This document shows positions 3,819 to 50,089 of a DNA stretch of 64,000 nucleotides, in pieces. Below the pieces are notes generated by a model that was given only the letters and a program-made list of their open reading frames with translations, did no database searches and was not told where the DNA came from. Each line of letters begins with the position of its first letter. Position 1 is the first letter of the stretch. Position numbers and translations under genes: made by a program. This DNA comes from Lacticaseibacillus pabuli (GTDB lineage Bacteria; Bacillota; Bacilli; Lactobacillales; Lactobacillaceae): assembly GCF_028736235.1 (NCBI RefSeq), contig NZ_CP117884.1:992001-1056000 (forward strand). The letters run 5' to 3'.

Positions 3819-3835
3819 AACATGACAGTTTAAAT

Positions 3836-3868
3836 AGGGCGTCAGCGATTTTTCGCTGACGCCCTTTT
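3836..3868 (+). terminator. mecA terminator
   Basis: A perfect 13-bp stem (AGGGCGTCAGCGA and its complement) around TTTT, followed by Ts. It lies between convergent mecA and azlD and may serve both. Confidence 0.9.
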
Positions 3869-3877
3869 GTTGCACTT

Positions 3878-4207
3878 CTACATGAGAAAACGAATTAATG
3901 CCATGGTGACAACGCCGACTGCCGCGATAGCGAGTAGCGACCGGGTGAGCACCGCCGTGATGACGCACGGGATTGCCGCGAGAAAATTGGGCACGTTGAG
4001 TGTCGGCAGGCTGCCTGCGTGCCGAACAAACAAGTTGCTTGCAACAAAGGCGGCCATGATGGCGACGGGGACAAAGGCGAGGAAGTTAGTGAGAAACCGT
4101 GGCATGCCAAAGCGTTTGAGCAAAACGAAGGGGAGTACGCGGCACAGCCAGGAAACAAGGCCGGTACCAATAATGACGGCAATCAGATAGGTATTAAGAC
4201 TGAGCAT
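3878..4207 (-). CDS. azlD: Branched-chain amino acid exporter small subunit AzlD
   Basis: A 109-residue membrane protein with four hydrophobic helices (for example LIAVIIGTGLVSWL, FVPVAIMAAFVASNLF, LLAIAAVGVVTMALI). It pairs with AzlC to export branched-chain amino acids or analogues. The ATG at 4207 overlaps the end of azlC by 14 bases, so translation is probably coupled. Upstream in-frame codons run through azlC and lack a ribosome site. Confidence 0.88.
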   Translation of the reverse strand: MLSLNTYLIAVIIGTGLVSWLCRVLPFVLLKRFGMPRFLTNFLAFVPVAIMAAFVASNLFVRHAGSLPTLNVPNFLAAIPCVITAVLTRSLLAIAAVGVVTMALIRFLM

Positions 4208-4904
4208 GAGCACGGACCCCCATTCCAAAGAGACAAGCGATGACGGTGACAACCAGCGTGACAATTCCAGATGGCATAAAGATGAGGCCAATGTATGTCA
4301 GGACGAACACCAGGCCGACGATGGTGAACTGTAGGCCCAATTTTTCGCCGCGGTCGCCGATGATTTGCAGGTACAAGAGTCCGATGAACATCGACACCAG
4401 CGCGTAATCCAGGCCCCACTGCTCAGGATTACTGATTAAACCACCGAGCAAATTACCGGCGAGACAGGCAGCGGCCCAGGCGAGGTATGCGAAGATGTTG
4501 CTCGCATTCAACCACTGAAAACTGAGGCGGTGATCGGTGTAGTTGAGTTTGTTCATGGACAAGGCAAAGGTCTCATCCGTGAGCAGGCTACCTAGAATGA
4601 TGTTGCGGCGCATACTGTCCTTGGTGAAGTAGGGGGCAACCGTCATGCTGGTGAGCAGCATGCGGGCACTCAGCATCAAGACCGAAAAGAGAATCGAGAG
4701 GTAGGGGCTATGAATGGCGAACATGCTGACAATCACGAACTGCGCCGCTCCCGAGTATGTAATCAGTGCCATAAGCAAGGCACCTAAAGCTGAAATATGT
4801 GCGGCACTGCTGACGATACCAAACGCCAGGCCAATGCCGATGTAGCCAAACACGGTTGGCAGGGTATCTGTTAGACCGGTTTTGCTGTCGAGTGAGTTGT
4901 TCAT
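4194..4904 (-). CDS. azlC: Branched-chain amino acid exporter large subunit AzlC
   Basis: A 236-residue polytopic membrane protein, AzlC family (TLPTVFGYIGIGLAFG near the N-terminus, then ALITYSGAAQFV and LLTDETFAL). It forms the transporter with AzlD. The start is ATG 4904 with AGGAG nine bases upstream. A hairpin with a T-run ends directly at this ribosome site, so expression needs read-through or a promoter inside the upstream gene. Confidence 0.9.
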   Translation of the reverse strand: MNNSLDSKTGLTDTLPTVFGYIGIGLAFGIVSSAAHISALGALLMALITYSGAAQFVIVSMFAIHSPYLSILFSVLMLSARMLLTSMTVAPYFTKDSMRRNIILGSLLTDETFALSMNKLNYTDHRLSFQWLNASNIFAYLAWAAACLAGNLLGGLISNPEQWGLDYALVSMFIGLLYLQIIGDRGEKLGLQFTIVGLVFVLTYIGLIFMPSGIVTLVVTVIACLFGMGVRAHAQS

Positions 4905-4918
4905 ACGCAATTTCTCCT

Positions 4919-4951
4919 AAAAAAACGGCACCCCTTCAAAAAGGGTGCCGC
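4919..4951 (-). terminator. Terminator or attenuator in front of azlC
   Basis: On the minus strand an 8-bp GC stem CGGCACCC / GGGTGCCG is followed by seven Ts that run straight into AGGAG of azlC. It ends the upstream HicB-like gene, but also sits where an azlC leader attenuator would. Confidence 0.8.
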
Positions 4952-4960
4952 CACATGTTT

Positions 4961-5344
4961 TTACAAAGCTACAGGCTTGTGGTATTCGACCAAATGAGAC
5001 AACTTGTCTGCTTGCCGGCGAATCTCCTCGGGGAGGTTTTGGGCGATTGTGAAAGTGGTTTGCATTTGGTGCGGATCAAAGTCACCGGGCACGCTAACAA
5101 TGGTATAAAATGTATTTTCCTTGTTATCTGGTATGGACGACAAGGTGTAGGCAGCGAGCGCCGCTTCATCATGCGGTAGCTGCTTTAAAAAGTCAGAGAG
5201 TACCCGGTACGAGTAATAGACGGCTTCAAGGTATGTGACCCCAGACGCGAAGAGGTTCGGAATAGTCGGAAACTCAATCGTATAACCCGTCTTGGTTTTT
5301 GTGTTTTTGGCAACAAAGAAATAGTGCCGTGTGCTGTCAGCCAT
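4961..5344 (-). CDS. HicB-like protein (no HicA partner)
   Basis: A 127-residue protein whose first ~60 residues resemble the HicB partial RNase H-like fold: a strand near HYFFVAKN, then GYTIEFPTIPNLFASG and a helix TYLEAVYYSYRVLSDFL. HicB proteins are antitoxins to HicA RNases, but no small HicA-like ORF is adjacent, so this looks like a solo HicB-fold protein, a type common in lactobacilli. The start is ATG 5344 behind GAGGAGGG. It may share a transcript with azlCD through the leaky terminator. Confidence 0.6.
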   Translation of the reverse strand: MADSTRHYFFVAKNTKTKTGYTIEFPTIPNLFASGVTYLEAVYYSYRVLSDFLKQLPHDEAALAAYTLSSIPDNKENTFYTIVSVPGDFDPHQMQTTFTIAQNLPEEIRRQADKLSHLVEYHKPVAL

Positions 5345-5462
5345 ATTCGTCCCTCCTCCTAATTCATGTAACATTATAACATGGTTAGAAAGAATCCGAA
5401 ATACCTCATTTAAATTAAAGCCCTTTACTCAATATTTTTATAATCCACTCGCGGCTTAGGCC

Positions 5463-5492
5463 TTGGCAAATGAATAAAAACCGTGCTATACT
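5463..5492 (+). promoter_or_regulatory. Promoter of tRNA-Gly and the argS leader
   Basis: TTGGCA (5463-5468), an 18-bp spacer and TATACT (5487-5492) with a TG extension. It lies 16 bases upstream of the tRNA. No second promoter fits between the tRNA and the argS leader. Confidence 0.75.
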
Positions 5493-5507
5493 AGTTTTCG
5501 TTCTGAT

Positions 5508-5578
5508 GCGGTCGTAGTTTAGTGGTAAAACTTCAGCTTCCCAAGCTGATGTCGCGAGTTCGATTCTCGTCGACCGCT
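5508..5578 (+). tRNA. tRNA-Gly (anticodon CCC)
   Basis: A full cloverleaf: acceptor GCGGTCG / CGACCGC, D-arm GTTT/AAAC, anticodon stem TCAGC/GCTGA with loop TTCCCAA (anticodon CCC, reads GGG), T-arm with TTCGATT. The discriminator is T and the CCA end is not encoded. It runs into the argS leader without a terminator. Confidence 0.93.
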
Positions 5579-5579
5579 G

Positions 5580-5775
5580 CAAACCCAGTGAGGGTGAAGA
5601 TCTGAGTCACAGCATGACAGTGAGCCCCTGCCGGTGGAAACGGGGTATGTGAAGCTCGGGGCGCGCACTTGAGGGTAATTTTCATATTGAGTGGGCGTAA
5701 GCCAACGAGAGTGGTAACGCGGGCGTGGCTCGTCTCTTTCATTTTATATGGAAGTGGCGGGCCCTTTTTATTTCG
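5580..5775 (+). promoter_or_regulatory. T-box leader of argS
   Basis: The region carries a T-box-type antiterminator sequence (GAGTGGTAACGCGG at about 5710-5723) followed by a terminator stem and Ts (up to 5770). The UGGU bulge fits a tRNA with A73. A plausible specifier is CGC (Arg), inferred by lining up the GCAC that follows it with the thrS leader. Uncharged tRNA-Arg should stabilise the antiterminator and turn argS on. The leader starts within a few bases of tRNA-Gly. Confidence 0.75.
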
Positions 5776-5788
5776 AGGAGGAAATTTC

Positions 5789-7471
5789 ATGGATTTTAAA
5801 AACCAGGTTGTCGACGCACTCAGCGCAGTGCTCAAAGATGAACTTAGTGCTGACCAGATTAAGGGCTTAATCGAAGTCCCTAAGACGAGCGAATTGGGCG
5901 ATTTTGCTTTTCCAACGTTCATGCTGGCAAAGACACGGCACATGGCACCAATTAAGATTGCGGCTGAAATCGCGGACCAGCTCGATAGCAGCAACTTCAG
6001 TAAGGTTGTTGCCACTGGGGCATATGTGAACTTCTTCCTTGCCCAGACCACCTTCGCGCAGCAAGTCCTCGCCGATATTGCGCAGCAAGGTGCTGATTAC
6101 GGTAAGCAGAACCTCGGGAGTGGCAACGTGCCAATTGACATGTCTAGTCCTAACATTGCCAAGCCAATGTCCATGGGTCACTTGCGGTCAACTGTGATTG
6201 GGAACTCAATCGCCAAGATCTTGACCAAGGTGGGTTACTCCCCGATTAAGATCAACCACTTAGGCGACTGGGGGACCCAGTTTGGGAAACTCATCGTGGC
6301 TTACAAGAAATGGGGGAGTGAAGAGGCGGTTAAGGCCGACCCAATCACCAACCTCTTGCACTACTACGTGCGTTTCCACAAGGAGGCTGAAACCCAGCCT
6401 GAATTGGATGATGAAGCACGTGCCTGGTTCAAGAAGCTGGAAGACGGCGACCCAGAGGCCCACGAGCTGTGGAGCTGGTTCCGTGGTGCCAGTCTGAAGG
6501 AATTCAAGCGGATCTACGATATCCTCGGCGTTAAGTTTGACAGCTTTAATGGTGAAGCTTTCTACAACGACAAGATGGACAAGGTGATTGATGAGCTCAA
6601 CGACAAGCATTTGCTCAAGGAAAGCCGCGGCGCTGAAGTGGTTGATTTGTCCAAGTACGACTTGAACCCAGCCCTCATTCGTAAGAGTGATGGGGCGTCC
6701 CTCTACATGACCCGTGATTTGGCTGCGGCGATTTACCGTCATGATGAATACAACTTTACCCAGAGCCTGTACGTGGTCGGAATGGAACAAACCGAACACT
6801 TTAAGCAGCTCAAGGCCGTCTTGCTCGAGATGGGCCACGACTGGGCCAACGATATTCACCACATCCCATTTGGCCTGATTACTGCCAACGGGAAGAAGCT
6901 TTCCACGCGTAAGGGTAACGTGATCCTGCTCGAGAAGGTTCTTGGCGAAGCCGTTGAACTGGCGAAGACCCAGATTGCGGAAAAGCACCCTGACTTGCAG
7001 AATGCCGACCAGGTTGCCGAAGACGTTGGTGTGGGCGCCGTTGTCTTCCATGACCTGAAGAGCGAACGGGTTGACAACTTCGACTTTAACCTCGAAGACG
7101 TTGTGCGTTTTGAAGGTGAAACTGGGCCTTATGTTCAGTACACCAACGCGCGTGCCAACAGTATTTTGACCAAGGCGAGCGCTAAGGCTGATGCCAGCGT
7201 TGTGCTCGATGACGATTCTGCGTGGGACGTGTTGAAATTGCTGGCTGATTTCCCGGCCACAGTTGCACGTGCAGCACGCGAATACGAACCATCTGTGATT
7301 GCCAAGTACGCTTTGCGTTTGGCTAAAGGCTTTAACCAATATTACGCGCACACCAAGATTCTGGTTGAAGACGCACAGTTGCCAGCTCGCTTGGCACTCG
7401 TTCAGAGCGTCAGCACCGTGCTGACCGAATCCTTGAATCTGCTTGGTGTCCGCGCACCGAAGGAAATGTAG
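5789..7471 (+). CDS. argS: Arginyl-tRNA synthetase
   Basis: A 560-residue class I synthetase that charges tRNA-Arg. N-terminal Arg-S domain (1-~85), catalytic core with the HIGH-like signature written PMSMGHLRST (first His replaced by Ser, as often seen in lactic acid bacteria), the KMSKS equivalent KKLSTRKG, and a C-terminal DALR anticodon-binding domain. Start is ATG 5789 with GAGGAGG upstream; the longer frame begins inside the T-box. argR follows 18 bases later, so charging and arginine control share a transcript. Confidence 0.96.
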   Translation: MDFKNQVVDALSAVLKDELSADQIKGLIEVPKTSELGDFAFPTFMLAKTRHMAPIKIAAEIADQLDSSNFSKVVATGAYVNFFLAQTTFAQQVLADIAQQGADYGKQNLGSGNVPIDMSSPNIAKPMSMGHLRSTVIGNSIAKILTKVGYSPIKINHLGDWGTQFGKLIVAYKKWGSEEAVKADPITNLLHYYVRFHKEAETQPELDDEARAWFKKLEDGDPEAHELWSWFRGASLKEFKRIYDILGVKFDSFNGEAFYNDKMDKVIDELNDKHLLKESRGAEVVDLSKYDLNPALIRKSDGASLYMTRDLAAAIYRHDEYNFTQSLYVVGMEQTEHFKQLKAVLLEMGHDWANDIHHIPFGLITANGKKLSTRKGNVILLEKVLGEAVELAKTQIAEKHPDLQNADQVAEDVGVGAVVFHDLKSERVDNFDFNLEDVVRFEGETGPYVQYTNARANSILTKASAKADASVVLDDDSAWDVLKLLADFPATVARAAREYEPSVIAKYALRLAKGFNQYYAHTKILVEDAQLPARLALVQSVSTVLTESLNLLGVRAPKEM

Positions 7472-46214: not shown

Positions 46215-47399
46215 TCAACCGTTTGTATAATGCTCAAAACTGTTGAAAACTTCCGAGGTGGATTGTTTAGTTGGGCGAGTGTACTCCTTAGTCATTTCCA
46301 TTGATGAGTGTCCGAGCCAGTGCATGACATCAATCGCAGGTGCCTGAGAAGCAATGGCTTGGGAAGCAAAGAAGTGACGGAATACATGAGGGGAGACGTG
46401 CAGGCCAGTGATATCATTCACTTTTTTAAATAGCTGATTCATTCTAGTCGGGTATTGAGGTGTGCCGTTAATTGTTTGCCATAGCCAAAGAGGGTCTTTT
46501 TTAAATGCCGGATGCTGGGAACGTAGATTTTTGGCAGTTCAGACAGCAAAGCTTAAATCATCAATGATTGAACCGGACACGTATATGGTGCGATATGAGG
46601 CATTGGTCTTTAAAGGATCACCTTCACGTTTGGAATCCGTGTAGATTGTGCGGGACTTGTCTATTTTGATTTCAGCCATTTGTGAGCCGTCAGGTCGTTT
46701 ACTAAATGTGATGGAATTTGTCCGCAGACCGCAGACCTCGCCTCGGCGCATGCCAGTCACGGCCGCCAACGCAATGACTGAATAGTCGTACCGTTTCAGA
46801 GTATGTTTAGCCACATCAAGCCATTTAGCAAAGTCCTCTGGCTGCAATGATTTTGGTCGGGGTTCTTTGCCAGATGTGGTAACACCGTGAGTGCGATTCT
46901 TGTCCAAATATTCGTCTTGAATTGCGGCATTTAAAATAGAATTCAGAGCGATGAGAAGTGACCTAGATGTTTCTTTTGCATAGCCTTGGGCAGCTATATC
47001 ATCTAGCCATTCCTGAACTTGAGGCCTACGAATATCACGCAGGTTCATGTTACCAAAAGCAGGCTTGATACGTTGCTCGTAGCTTGCGACTGCTTTCTTG
47101 GCTGTCGAGGGGCGCCAGCGATTTGTTTTAAGCCGTTGATTCAAGTATTTTTTCCAGTAGCGGTCCAGGGTAATGTGTCCGCTGTTTAACTTGTCGAGTT
47201 TGTTCATTGCAAGATCGGCTTCGAACTGCTTTAGCTCTTTGTCAGCATCGTGCCAGTTTTTAAACCCAGACTTAGTGAACTCAGCACGCTTGTTGTTTGC
47301 GGCATAATAACCGCGACGAATGGCATATAGGGTTATACCTTTGGATGTCTCATATTTGTACAAATGTGGATGCTTGTTCATTGGTGTCCATTTTTTCAT
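46215..47399 (-). pseudogene. int: Phage tyrosine recombinase/integrase, broken by one nonsense codon
   Basis: A ~394-codon integrase interrupted by a single in-frame TGA at 46541-46539; the frame is continuous on both sides. N-terminal arm/core-binding part (YKYETSKGITLYAIRRGYY, then a SAM-like domain ITLDRYWKKYLNQR ... AKKAVASYEQRI), catalytic Arg in TGMRRGEVCGL, then after the stop HVFRH, the second His in HWLGHSS and the nucleophile Tyr in MTKEYTR. Only the TGA separates the halves, so recombination is lost unless it is read through. It faces gnd. Confidence 0.88.
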
Positions 47400-47508
47400 G
47401 ATGATTTGCTCCTTTATGGATTGTTGTTTGAATTAGTAGGTTCGCAGTTCACGAACCTATGTTCGGTATAGCTGTTAAAGAAAAGCCCGTTTTCGGGCTA
47501 CTCATTAC

Positions 47509-48480
47509 TTAATTCTGATTTGTCTGTTCCATCAGAGGCTTTTCCTGCCAATCGGTAGGGAAACCAAGATGTTGAGTAATGCTGTTAATATCAACTGAAT
47601 GAAGTCTATGCTGCAAAGTTCTTGTTCTTTTTCTTAGTGAGTTATAAAGCACACAGTACTCGGTTCTGCTGAGAAAGCATTTTAAGCTAACCAAAACAGA
47701 ATAAACTGTATTTCTCTCATCGTCAGAAGAAATACCGGCAGAATCATGTAAACTATTTAAATATTTTGCACTCGCACGACAGTTAAAATCTATCAGTCGA
47801 TTTCCGTGAGCGCAAACGTTTCTGGTCTCACGAATGTTTTCAATGAACGAGACAAGAGTTTCAGGTGGAATTCTAAGATCATTCAATTCAAGATTGTCTT
47901 CCAAAAAGCCCGTCATATCTTTAGCTATACGGTTTTGAATCCTTAAAGGAAGACTGGAAATGATTGATTGGATGTCTCCAAAGTCAAGGAATTCAACCAA
48001 CACCCACATTGGAACGTCGTCATACTTATTTACATAATAGTTGATGGGGTTGCCGGAATGCTTCCTGTTTCGCTTAATAACCCACGAGATTTTTGAGATA
48101 GTGTACACGATACTTAAAATAGCCTTCTCTTGGTAACAGCCAACGTCCAAGTATGCATATCGTTGGTTGGGATAAGCTTCGGCAAAACGATGTGCTAAGA
48201 CTGATTTTAGATGATTCTCTGCTGACAAAATAGCGTTCATCAAAATTTGCTTCATTTCCTTGTCATAAAAGTAGAGATGACAAACTTCGTCAAAATCTGC
48301 ACCATCTATATAAACATCAGGTTTACTTTGAAAATATTTACTGTATCCATTGACAATATTGTAATAATTATTGGTGAGCAAATAGCGTCTTGCTCTGGAC
48401 TCATCATTAATTAGTAAGCCTCTTTGTTTCAAGAGACTCAGCTGTTGATCAATGCTAAGAAAAACACGCTTTTCATGCAT
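47509..48480 (-). CDS. Abi_2/AbiF-family abortive infection protein with HEPN motif
   Basis: A 323-residue protein of the Abi_2 (AbiD/AbiF) family: the start FLSIDQQLSLLKQRGLLI, then ARRYLLTNNYYNIVNGYSKYF, and in the C-terminal half ENIRETRNVCAHGNRLI, which carries the HEPN R-x4-H RNase motif (RNVCAH, ~240). Such proteins stop phage growth by killing or arresting infected cells, likely through RNA cleavage. Start ATG 48480; upstream in-frame codons lie inside a terminator hairpin. It sits between the integrase and the SHOCT genes of the prophage remnant, the usual place for lysogeny-module defence genes. AT-richer than its neighbours. Its upstream RNA is described separately. Confidence 0.85.
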   Translation of the reverse strand: MHEKRVFLSIDQQLSLLKQRGLLINDESRARRYLLTNNYYNIVNGYSKYFQSKPDVYIDGADFDEVCHLYFYDKEMKQILMNAILSAENHLKSVLAHRFAEAYPNQRYAYLDVGCYQEKAILSIVYTISKISWVIKRNRKHSGNPINYYVNKYDDVPMWVLVEFLDFGDIQSIISSLPLRIQNRIAKDMTGFLEDNLELNDLRIPPETLVSFIENIRETRNVCAHGNRLIDFNCRASAKYLNSLHDSAGISSDDERNTVYSVLVSLKCFLSRTEYCVLYNSLRKRTRTLQHRLHSVDINSITQHLGFPTDWQEKPLMEQTNQN

Positions 48481-48511
48481 AAAAAAACTCCTCATTTTTA
48501 CATGAGGAGTT
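48481..48511 (-). terminator. Terminator hairpin that buries the abi ribosome site
   Basis: On the minus strand AACTCCTCAT pairs perfectly over ten bases with ATGAGGAGTT (48511-48502 with 48495-48486), loop GTAAAA, followed by seven Ts and then the ATG of abi. The 3' arm contains AGGAG, the only ribosome site for that ATG. Confidence 0.88.
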
Positions 48512-48548
48512 CGCAACGGTCCCCGTAGAGATGCCGTCACTTCTTGTT
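48481..48548 (-). ncRNA. Candidate small RNA upstream of the Abi_2 gene (abiF-RNA/type III antitoxin-like)
   Basis: Starting about 7 bases after the -10, ~68 nt with no ORF ends in the terminator at 48511-48481. It holds two ACGG copies and one CCGT that could form alternative stems, one of them ACGG-GGA-CCGT, before the terminator. A promoter-short RNA-terminator-HEPN gene order is that of type III toxin-antitoxin loci, and matches my memory of an abiF RNA motif reported upstream of Abi_2 genes; the match was not checked. Confidence 0.65.
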
Positions 48549-48554
48549 AACCTC

Positions 48555-48583
48555 ATGTTAGAAGACGCAAATACTAAAGTCAA
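48555..48583 (-). promoter_or_regulatory. Promoter of the abi-associated RNA
   Basis: TTGACT (48583-48578), 17-bp spacer, TAACAT (48560-48555), reading leftward. Confidence 0.75.
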
Positions 48584-48615
48584 CACACACTAGAAAATAA
48601 TTTTAAAAGCCTGTC

Positions 48616-49506
48616 CTACAATCCCAGTAGTTCTTTCTTCTTAGCGTCGAAGTCATCTTGTGTGATGACGCCATCGTCAAGCAGAGACTTCATATCGCGT
48701 AACTGGTCAGCAACAGTTTGCTGTTTCGGTGCGACATCAACACCATCGTTTGCCAAGACAGCTTTCCGCATTTCAGCTTCATACTCGTCATTTGAAATCT
48801 GCCCATTGTTAAGTGCTTTTTCCAGCCGGTCAAGTCGTTCCCCAATACTCATGCTTTGGTTAGGGTAACTCGACGTGGGTGATGTCTGAGGCTCTGGAAT
48901 GGCGGGGGTAGGGTCGGATACTGTCTCTCCACGTTCCTGAGCTAAATAAGCTGCCCATGCCGCATCATCATTTGGGTCGGTTGGAGGTGTGAGAGTGTCA
49001 AAAGGCTTCTGATTTAGGACTGGAATGTTTGCTGAATTGTTGCCAATAAGATTACGACGAGTGCCTTCGAAGTCAACGAGACAAACCTTTGCATATGCAT
49101 TTGCTTCTGCGGTAGTCATAGCCCACCTGAGCACAATGGTGTCGTTGGGCCGGTTATCGATGATGTTTTGTGCATCTATAAAAATCATTCTAGTTTGAGT
49201 ACGATCTTCCCATGTGTTGGTTTCGTATTGCCTTCCATGGTTAAATCCAACCACAGCCCCTAATCCACCAGCAAGGGCGCCCCCGACAAAAGCGCTGCCC
49301 AGACCTCCATGACCCTTGGTTTCGGTGTGCATTTTGCCTGCTTTGTGATTCATTCCGATTAAATAAAAGTCGGTCATATCCATTTTCGAACCAGGAAAGT
49401 GAAAAATACGGGATTGTTCATCAAAGATAAACTTGACGTCCATTCCCCATTCTCCGAGTGCTCTCATGCCTGGTCCGTCAACGCCTTCAAACTTGTCCTT
49501 AATCAC
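48616..49506 (-). CDS. SHOCT-tailed prophage protein A, unknown
   Basis: A 296-residue protein: an N-terminal domain (VKFIFDEQSRIFHF ... with a Gly-rich stretch GGLGSAFVGGALAGGLGAVVG at ~75-95 that may be membrane-active), a polar middle, and two C-terminal SHOCT-like helical hairpins (IGERLDRLEKALNNGQISNDEY and DQLRDMKSLLDDGVITQDDF). SHOCT modules often end short secreted or membrane proteins and mediate oligomerisation. Start GTG 49506 with GGAGG seven bases upstream; the frame above it is a shifted copy of the neighbour's tail. Function not known. Confidence 0.7.
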   Translation of the reverse strand: MIKDKFEGVDGPGMRALGEWGMDVKFIFDEQSRIFHFPGSKMDMTDFYLIGMNHKAGKMHTETKGHGGLGSAFVGGALAGGLGAVVGFNHGRQYETNTWEDRTQTRMIFIDAQNIIDNRPNDTIVLRWAMTTAEANAYAKVCLVDFEGTRRNLIGNNSANIPVLNQKPFDTLTPPTDPNDDAAWAAYLAQERGETVSDPTPAIPEPQTSPTSSYPNQSMSIGERLDRLEKALNNGQISNDEYEAEMRKAVLANDGVDVAPKQQTVADQLRDMKSLLDDGVITQDDFDAKKKELLGL

Positions 49507-49522
49507 ATTCAACCCTCCATAA

Positions 49523-50089
49523 TCACAAACCCAGCAGCTGCTTCTTCTTTGTATCAAAGTCAGCTTGAGTGATGACACCATCATCAAGCAGTGACTTCAT
49601 GTCGCGAAGTTGGTCAGGAACGGTTGAGGATTGCTGTGCAGTGGCAGGCTGGGCTTTACGCTCAGACATCGCAGGCCAAGAATCCACGGTCCGCTGTACG
49701 TTCTGAATGTTGTCTTTCCAGAAGCCTTCACCAGCCATGAAAGTGTAGCAGATGTAGGTAGCCTTTTTACCGTTGGAATCCGTAATTTCCATGCGGTCAG
49801 CGTTGAAGAGCAGGCGACCATTGATGAACTTGGTCTTGCTAATCTCGACGTTGCCAACATCTTCATAGGATACAAAGTGGTGTGTTCCATTGAAATGGCG
49901 CATCAGGTTGAGTCCCATAAAAAGAATGCCATTGTTCTGGAAACTGGCGATGTAGTAGCGGTCGCTCAAAGCTGCATAGCTACCCAAAAGCATCTTGATA
50001 CCACTGACAGATTCGATGTACACGCTTGTTGAAGGGTCGTTGGGATAATCGAGTTTACCTAGTTCTTGTTGAATTGCATCTAATTTCAT
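49523..50089 (-). CDS. SHOCT-tailed prophage protein B (PH-like domain), unknown
   Basis: A 188-residue protein: a PH-like beta domain (about 25-140; YYIASFQNNGILFMGLNL, HHFVSYEDVGNVEISKTKF, NGRLLFNADRMEITDSNGK) and a C-terminal SHOCT tail almost identical to that of protein A (DQLRDMKSLLDDGVIT). Their last ~100 bases form a direct repeat, so the two may have arisen by tail duplication. The ribosome site is weak. Confidence 0.7.
   Translation of the reverse strand: MKLDAIQQELGKLDYPNDPSTSVYIESVSGIKMLLGSYAALSDRYYIASFQNNGILFMGLNLMRHFNGTHHFVSYEDVGNVEISKTKFINGRLLFNADRMEITDSNGKKATYICYTFMAGEGFWKDNIQNVQRTVDSWPAMSERKAQPATAQQSSTVPDQLRDMKSLLDDGVITQADFDTKKKQLLGL

Follow-up and report, generated by a model that had tools for sequence, protein, structure and literature searches.

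A covarying leader RNA precedes an AbiF-type gene of Lacticaseibacillus pabuli and its core recurs without a nearby toxin gene in phages

We analyzed a 64,000-nt stretch of the Lacticaseibacillus pabuli genome (contig NZ_CP117884.1; hereafter the window) and found that its Abi_2/AbiF-type gene is preceded by a leader RNA of a separate, strongly covarying family, which is absent from Rfam and new for the known AbiF kind. The locus (Table 1) is very probably a type III-like AbiF toxin-antitoxin or abortive-infection unit, in which the small RNA would silence the AbiF protein.

Table 1. Features of the AbiF-type locus, in positions of the window
Feature	Position	Strand	Basis
-35 element TTGACT	48578..48583	(-)	sequence; relatives with the same spacing, chosen partly for having a promoter
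-10 element TAACAT	48555..48560	(-)	sequence; relatives; 17 bases from the -35 element
Element P, ACATGAGG, end of the -10 element and the bases behind it	48551..48558	(-)	complementary to 48500-48507; permutation test, 39 loci
Predicted 68-nt leader RNA (putative antitoxin and terminator)	48481..48548	(-)	start inferred from phiC2 spacing
Core hairpin GUGACGG-CA-UCUC-UACG-GGGA-CCGUUGC	48513..48540	(-)	fold; covariation
Terminator hairpin	48485..48512	(-)	fold; remaining U tract runs to 48481
Partner of P, CCUCAUGU, terminator 5' arm and loop (T5)	48500..48507	(-)	complementarity and covariation tests
Ribosome site AGGAG in the terminator 3' arm	48488..48492	(-)	sequence; 7 nt before the ATG at 48480
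Abi_2/AbiF-type HEPN protein gene, 323 aa	47509..48480	(-)	Pfam Abi_2; PADLOC AbiD; profile match to PDB 8vz6
HEPN RNase motif RNVCAH, residues 220-225	47806..47823	(-)	conservation in 17 aligned relatives

The encoded protein matched Pfam Abi_2 (PF07751) with E = 3.3e-36 and 125.7 bits, against a curated cut-off of 25.6, and was called AbiD by PADLOC (E = 3.1e-54). Relatives were gathered from genomes, phages and viral contigs. A profile of 17 of them matched PDB entry 8vz6, an Abi family protein (E = 1.6e-20) described in PMC12737573 as the PbAbiF-RNA complex, and R220, N221, A224 and H225 were invariant across the alignment. Both the Abi_2/AbiF HEPN assignment and the R-x4-H motif of a preliminary description of this DNA were thereby confirmed. 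Close relatives were found in Lacticaseibacillus hulanensis (68% identity) and on one viral contig (69%); another genome of the same genus carries a locus with the same leader and a protein likewise 68% identical. An Abi_2 relative at E <= 1e-3 was present in 100 of 397 Lactobacillaceae genomes. A plasmid search with the protein returned 250 records, all below 60% identity, with a maximum of about 30% among the 60 matches listed. Beside the gene, an integrase is split into two open reading frames (46215-46442 and 46539-47399), which fits prophage decay. Upstream of the leader and co-directional with it, two neighboring proteins with C-terminal SHOCT domains are encoded at 48616-50089; no terminator was found in the 32-base gap.

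The mechanical open reading frame of the Abi_2 gene is open back to a GTG at 48540, and we adopted the ATG at 48480 as its start. Transcription was predicted to begin near 48548, 7 nt past the -10 element as in phage phiC2, whose spacing was itself derived by applying the 168-nt distance published for strain R20291. The TTGACT-17-TAACAT promoter of the preliminary description is present on the minus strand, and the predicted RNA has the length of about 68 bases given there. Positions 48547-48481 fold into two hairpins with -28.8 kcal/mol, compared to -13.2 +/- 2.7 for 200 shuffled sequences (z = -5.75). The first is bulged and carries a UACG loop; both the fold and the covariation reported below support this single hairpin instead of the alternative ACGG/CCGT stems proposed previously. 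The second is the terminator, whose stem (48512-48502 with 48495-48485) comprises 11 pairs, the outermost being G-U, and not the 10 previously described, and the seven Ts (48487-48481) are present as described. Its 3' arm contains AGGAG, as had also been noted, and the ribosome site is thus buried in the fold.

Of 84 loci with at least 36% protein identity (redundancy kept), 81 have both promoter and terminator spaced as in the window locus, while L014, L050 and L086 failed the promoter, terminator or spacing filters; the layout is therefore not due to chance. In total, 129 loci had an upstream region, 95 passed these filters and 47 remained as non-redundant, namely 39 with a leader of the window's family and 8 with a second leader type. 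Satellites of Streptococcus salivarius and S. vestibularis carry relatives with leaders of the window's type. Conservation of the leader among Abi_2 homologs, whose absence had been named beforehand as grounds for refutation, was thus observed.

We aligned 29 of the 39 leaders by sequence only (alignment A2), leaving aside ten that were judged by eye to be less alignable (L041, L045, L049, L055-L057, L087 and L096-L098), so that the pair counts lean to the clearer members. In the 11-pair core, 86.2% of the cells were paired, compared to 71.5% in shuffled alignments and at most 52.0% when the pairing was slid. Changes on both sides of a pair occurred in 52 cells (16.5 in shuffles) and the covariation score was 0.521 (0.260 in shuffles); none of 500 shuffles matched any of these three measures, and 3 of 500 matched the count of further pair types. 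Pairs with a double change showed no excess (6 compared to 5.4 in shuffles, matched in 240 of 500). One core pair occurs as UA, AU, GU, CG, GC and UG. The upstream hairpin, for which a covariation test had been suggested, therefore covaries beyond both the shuffled and the slid controls in these 29 relatives. A covariance model built from A2 (R2), which includes the window locus, recovered the window leader from its own genome with E = 2.3e-12, the next matches having E = 0.004 and 0.62.

By our distance rule, 26 of the 39 non-redundant relatives have their start codon shortly after the terminator, and 25 of these 26 have a purine run resembling a ribosome site in the 3' arm; for the remaining one, L006, the motif list used found no such run. 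In the other 13 relatives the start codon is farther away, and hiding of the ribosome site is therefore not universal. A second leader family, AGATCAAGTTCGGAGGGCCC...GGAGTAGGTGCCGAACTAAC followed by a terminator, stands upstream of Abi_2 genes in L017-L021, L024 and L026-L030. The Abi_2 proteins of these loci are about 30% identical, and no Rfam abiF match was found in those scanned.

The leader does not belong to the Rfam abiF family (RF03085), to which the preliminary description had likened it. The suggested covariance-model check, run as a full Rfam scan of 47300-48900, gave no abiF RNA match at E <= 1, and the only match listed at the locus was mir-87 on the other strand (E = 0.89), which we regard as noise. 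The same library detected the abiF motif in C. difficile phage phiC2 with 37.6 bits. None of 20 related loci, including eight with a leader of the window's type, reached the gathering score of the abiF model, and among 101 Lactobacillaceae genomes RF03085 gave matches at E <= 10 in nine, none of them above the cut-off. We therefore rejected membership; RF03085 differs from the leader in both sequence and structure.

We propose that transcription from the unit's own promoter would mostly stop after about 68 nt in vivo, yielding a small RNA whose bulged hairpin would bind and silence the AbiF protein. Rare read-through would give the mRNA of the putative toxin with the ribosome site still folded into the terminator stem, so that toxin output would be restricted at two levels. 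The presumed trigger is that, during infection, the RNA is lost or the leader unfolds, which would free the ribonuclease and stop the cell. This mechanism is the known one carried over, since homology and layout of the locus fit the AbiF kind. In C. difficile, the AbiF leader RNA RCd22 is described as being terminated upstream of the gene, lowering the expression of that gene, and neutralizing AbiFCd in cis and in trans via direct binding (PMC12373285); the AbiF/AbiFr toxin-antitoxin is reviewed in PMC12737573. AbiFCd/RCd22, which is located in the phi027 prophage, resembles the window locus in its Abi_2 protein with an R-x4-H motif, its SigA promoter, the short terminated upstream RNA, the read-through mRNA and the type III-like antitoxin. 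It differs in that RCd22 contains two Rfam abiF motifs and the ribosome site stands apart (PMC12373285), whereas the window leader contains one hairpin that differs in sequence and structure, and its ribosome site lies within the terminator. PbAbiF/AbiFr (8vz6) is also alike, with a protein homologous by profile search and an antitoxin RNA that we compare by its description in PMC12737573, although the protein is distant.

The type III-like layout put forward in the preliminary description agrees with these data by its terminated short RNA and hidden ribosome site and by the AbiF/RCd22 precedent. A structured RNA, a terminator and a gene for an RNase-like toxin stand behind one promoter, as judged from the sequence. 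Type III antitoxins are described as tandem RNA repeats, as in ToxI (PMC8860590), while the window leader holds a single core; AbiF systems are nevertheless filed under type III in PMC12737573 and PMC12948488. Against the antitoxin reading stand the missing Rfam abiF match and the single core unit where RCd22 has two motifs.

The leader could also be a mere cis attenuator or sensor whose terminator or ribosome site opens in response to a phage protein or to falling temperature, the small RNA being a by-product that binds no protein. The model for this is AbiD1 of Lactococcus lactis plasmid pIL105, a protein of the AbiD/F group whose leader, compared here by description, likewise gives a terminated transcript, of 50 bases, ending before the gene, with a sequestered ribosome site; in AbiD1 this site is located in a stem downstream of the terminator (PMC2661086). 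Translation of AbiD1 is reported to be switched on by phage Orf1 and by cold (PMC2661086), and the fusion of the terminator with the start region in 26 of 39 relatives would suit such a switch. However, the covarying core sits outside of both the terminator and the ribosome site, it occurs in phages without a nearby toxin gene, which a purely cis-acting element would not explain, and RCd22 binds its AbiF protein (PMC12373285). We therefore regard a purely cis-acting leader as improbable and retain the antitoxin reading. The translational-lid part of our proposal is weakened by the report that removal of the AbiD1 terminator stem did not raise translation (PMC2661086).

The loci share a further feature. 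Element P, which reaches from the -10 hexamer roughly to the start site, is complementary to T5 of its own locus. Over the 39 loci, own pairs scored 19.0, compared to 13.05 +/- 0.52 for permuted partners, and none of 10,000 permutations reached this value, although relatedness among the loci remains in this comparison. An earlier set of 27 loci gave 0 of 5000 permutations, with the signal only at the -10 region. In the second leader type the score was reached by 38 and 44 of 5000 permutations (n = 10, two scores) and by 702 of 10,000 (n = 8), and the complementarity is therefore doubtful there. A plain direct repeat of the terminator 3' arm (T3) was rejected as a description of P, as the complement to T5 wins.

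P could conceivably act as an antiterminator for transcripts reading in from upstream, pairing with T5 before the 3' arm is made and thereby allowing read-through into the toxin gene and exposing the ribosome site. The permutation result and its restriction to the -10 region are in line with this, as are several other observations: at T5:T3 G.U positions, P tracks T5 and not T3 in 42 of 44 cases (in segments picked for their T5 match), the complement exceeds the direct repeat in 32 loci compared to 4, with 3 ties, P:T5 folds in 38 of 39 partial read-in transcripts, and the upstream open reading frame selected for each locus, its longest within 700 nt, runs in the same direction in 37 of 39. 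On the other hand, the full-length read-in RNA favors the terminator in 36 of 39 loci. The strength of P:T5 was independent of an upstream terminator-like site (rho = 0.08, p = 0.64), the means being 8.28 for the 9 loci with such a site and 7.78 for the 30 without. G.U pairs were not favored over A.C mismatches (10 compared to 13), and selection of P:T5 at the RNA level is therefore unsupported. Being upstream of the predicted start, P is absent from RNA made from the unit's own promoter, and the second leader type (8-10 loci) gives a weak signal. Antitermination is thus a tentative reading that we consider rather doubtful. As judged from these sequence comparisons, the P:T5 complementarity is a real but unexplained feature, and a simple read-in antiterminator is not supported.

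The leader core was also found apart from Abi_2 genes. Among 295 genomes of the order, R2 found 13 matches with E <= 1e-4; 9 precede an Abi_2 gene and 4 (L175-L178) do not adjoin one. Matches above this threshold were left uninterpreted, and all but one of those fetched had no adjoining Abi_2 gene. L175 and L177 may be decayed AbiF loci; in L175 (4640-5260) an intact leader is followed by a closed reading frame and then by a HIRAN-domain gene, and the toxin gene seems lost. L176, from a genome of the window's family, belongs to a prophage, where an ArpU-type activator and terS flank it and tRNA-like elements precede it. L178 stands behind an endolysin, has its own -10-like element and terminator (by eye) and is close to an ABC-three-component system, of which SMEK/CTD10 and DUF2326 genes were observed downstream of the toxin-free core (3830-6733).

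In viral sequences, BLAST with the L176 core gave weak matches (E = 0.6 to 8) to 23 Streptococcus agalactiae phages, and four S. agalactiae phages were detected by R2 with E = 3.5e-7 to 6.4e-7, values that are optimistic on pre-selected viral contigs. A core pattern retrieved 36 viral stretches, compared to 6 with a reversed-pattern control, so that some matches are expected by chance. Fourteen of the stretches are on contigs listed with Abi_2, and for the other 22 a search of the stored stretch gave no Abi_2 match at E <= 1e-3. These 22 represent 14 distinct cores, 13 of which form at least five of the six pairs not fixed by the pattern, where 2.9% would be expected with uniform bases; all six are formed in 7 of the 14.

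We aligned the 14 pattern-found cores, including the unpaired L192, with L176 and L201 (alignment A3), in which the pattern-fixed columns cannot vary. In these 16 cores 92.6% of the cells were paired (82.4% in shuffles), 22 cells carried double changes (7.1 in shuffles) and the covariation score was 0.414 (0.229 in shuffles), each matched in 0 of 500 shuffles; neither the pairs with a double change (128 of 500) nor the pair types (105 of 500) exceeded the shuffled alignments. L192 is probably a chance match (one of six free pairs, no R2 match), and R2 E-values of 0.0026, 0.00054 and 0.00029 make L191, L180 and the L179 group, respectively, doubtful. Nine Abi_2-free contigs from a tighter promoter-plus-core pattern were dropped as they had no R2 match. 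No Abi_2 was found at E <= 0.1 in 14 of 17 whole records examined, some of which may be fragments; the record of L190 has an Abi_2 gene at its far end, and those of Javan35 and Javan5 encode a divergent Abi_2. The S. thermophilus phages Sfi11, Sfi19, Sfi21, SFi18, O1205 and CHPC919 match both core and flank (12 records including duplicates), with R2 E-values of about 3e-8 for Sfi11 and O1205. SW13, SW14, SW1151 and YMC-2011 share the flank, and R2 detected no core in them; related phages thus exist both with and without the hairpin.

The toxin-free cores stand in recurring surroundings. Late activator and terminase genes flank the core in L176, L195, L198 and L202, terS or a methyltransferase-terS block follows it in L185 and L183, and lysis genes precede it in L178, L194, Sfi11 and O1205. 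L184, L189 and L197 deviate from this late-operon pattern, with transposase and PnuC, RhuM, and endonuclease neighbors, respectively. In L189 (6907-6975), a leader-like RNA, accompanied by a promoter-like stretch and a terminator-like hairpin, was observed between an HTH regulator and a RhuM-family gene, and its 100-kb record contains no Abi_2 at E <= 0.1.

The core is surrounded by tRNA-like elements in the three S. agalactiae phages inspected (L201, L202 and L203). A strict one-strand search found 9 such elements no farther than 700 nt from the core, distributed over 6 of 19 loci, and one in about 131 kb beyond; three of these six are S. agalactiae phages related to each other. Elements of this kind were seen in L176 (6700-6846), L184, L198 and L201-L203, some consisting only of an acceptor stem and T arm; they are possibly processing sites. 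Behind the lysin of Sfi11 (L214, 1440-2000) and O1205 (L218, 1440-2061), several short units were discerned by eye, each with a TATAAT-like element, a hairpin and a T run, and the AbiF-type core is one of them. A second hairpin there, CCTCTCAC...GAGGGAGG, has counterparts in the core-less SW13, SW14 and SW1151. These units are perhaps an array of small phage RNAs.

Toxin-free cores could be functionless remnants of lost AbiF loci. Two of the four Abi_2-less genome matches do look decayed (L175, and L177 with an apparent broken toxin remnant), and an Abi_2 gene at the far end of its record, as in L190, would suit such an origin. Yet covariation persists in the phage cores, and unrelated phages carry them at similar places (between activator and terminase, before terS, behind the lysin). 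Searches for toxin pieces were negative, both in the stored stretches at E <= 1e-3 and, above noise level, in L176 and L178. We consider it unlikely that the phage cores are mere remnants.

From the combined sequence comparisons, we somewhat favor the view that phages of lactic acid bacteria and streptococci use stand-alone AbiF hairpins as RNA antidotes against host AbiF/AbiD, with some copies in arrays of tRNA-like elements where the late operon begins or after the lysin, and that this would be a recurrent natural counter-defense. A core common to toxin loci and phages is expected if it binds AbiF and phages use it as a decoy. Such a decoy is described for phage phiTE, whose pseudo-ToxI is an RNA mimic of a type III antitoxin (PMC3475682). 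It is likewise a toxin-free set of antitoxin-RNA copies in a phage, but its toxin is ToxN and its protection of the phage was shown experimentally, whereas the phage AbiF cores are known from sequence. The RNA anti-CRISPR rAcrVIA1, described as blocking Cas13 by structural mimicry (PMC12948488), is alike in idea, in that a phage RNA mimics the RNA partner of a HEPN-type RNase, as compared by description, but its target is Cas13. Our literature search, which covered only a minority of subscription journals, found no title or abstract beginning on an AbiF decoy.

With this leader family, the AbiF loci of lactobacilli and streptococci gain a recognizable RNA partner that is missing from Rfam, and a single leader element combines terminator, start region and lid over the ribosome site. 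In S. thermophilus, AbiD is reported to be the most common non-CRISPR, non-restriction defense (74 of 263 strains; PMC12322248), and the AbiD systems evaluated gave low to moderate protection against streptococcal phages (PMC11514479). The toxin-free copies suggest counter-defense in well-studied dairy phages. In two reviews, Cas13 is traced back to AbiF (PMC12737573, PMC12948488), and the AbiF/Cas13 study of Zilberzwige-Tal et al., 2025, is cited in PMC12373285 and PMC12737573. If the antidote reading is true, it would mean RNA counter-defense against a toxin family that has been proposed as the ancestor of Cas13.
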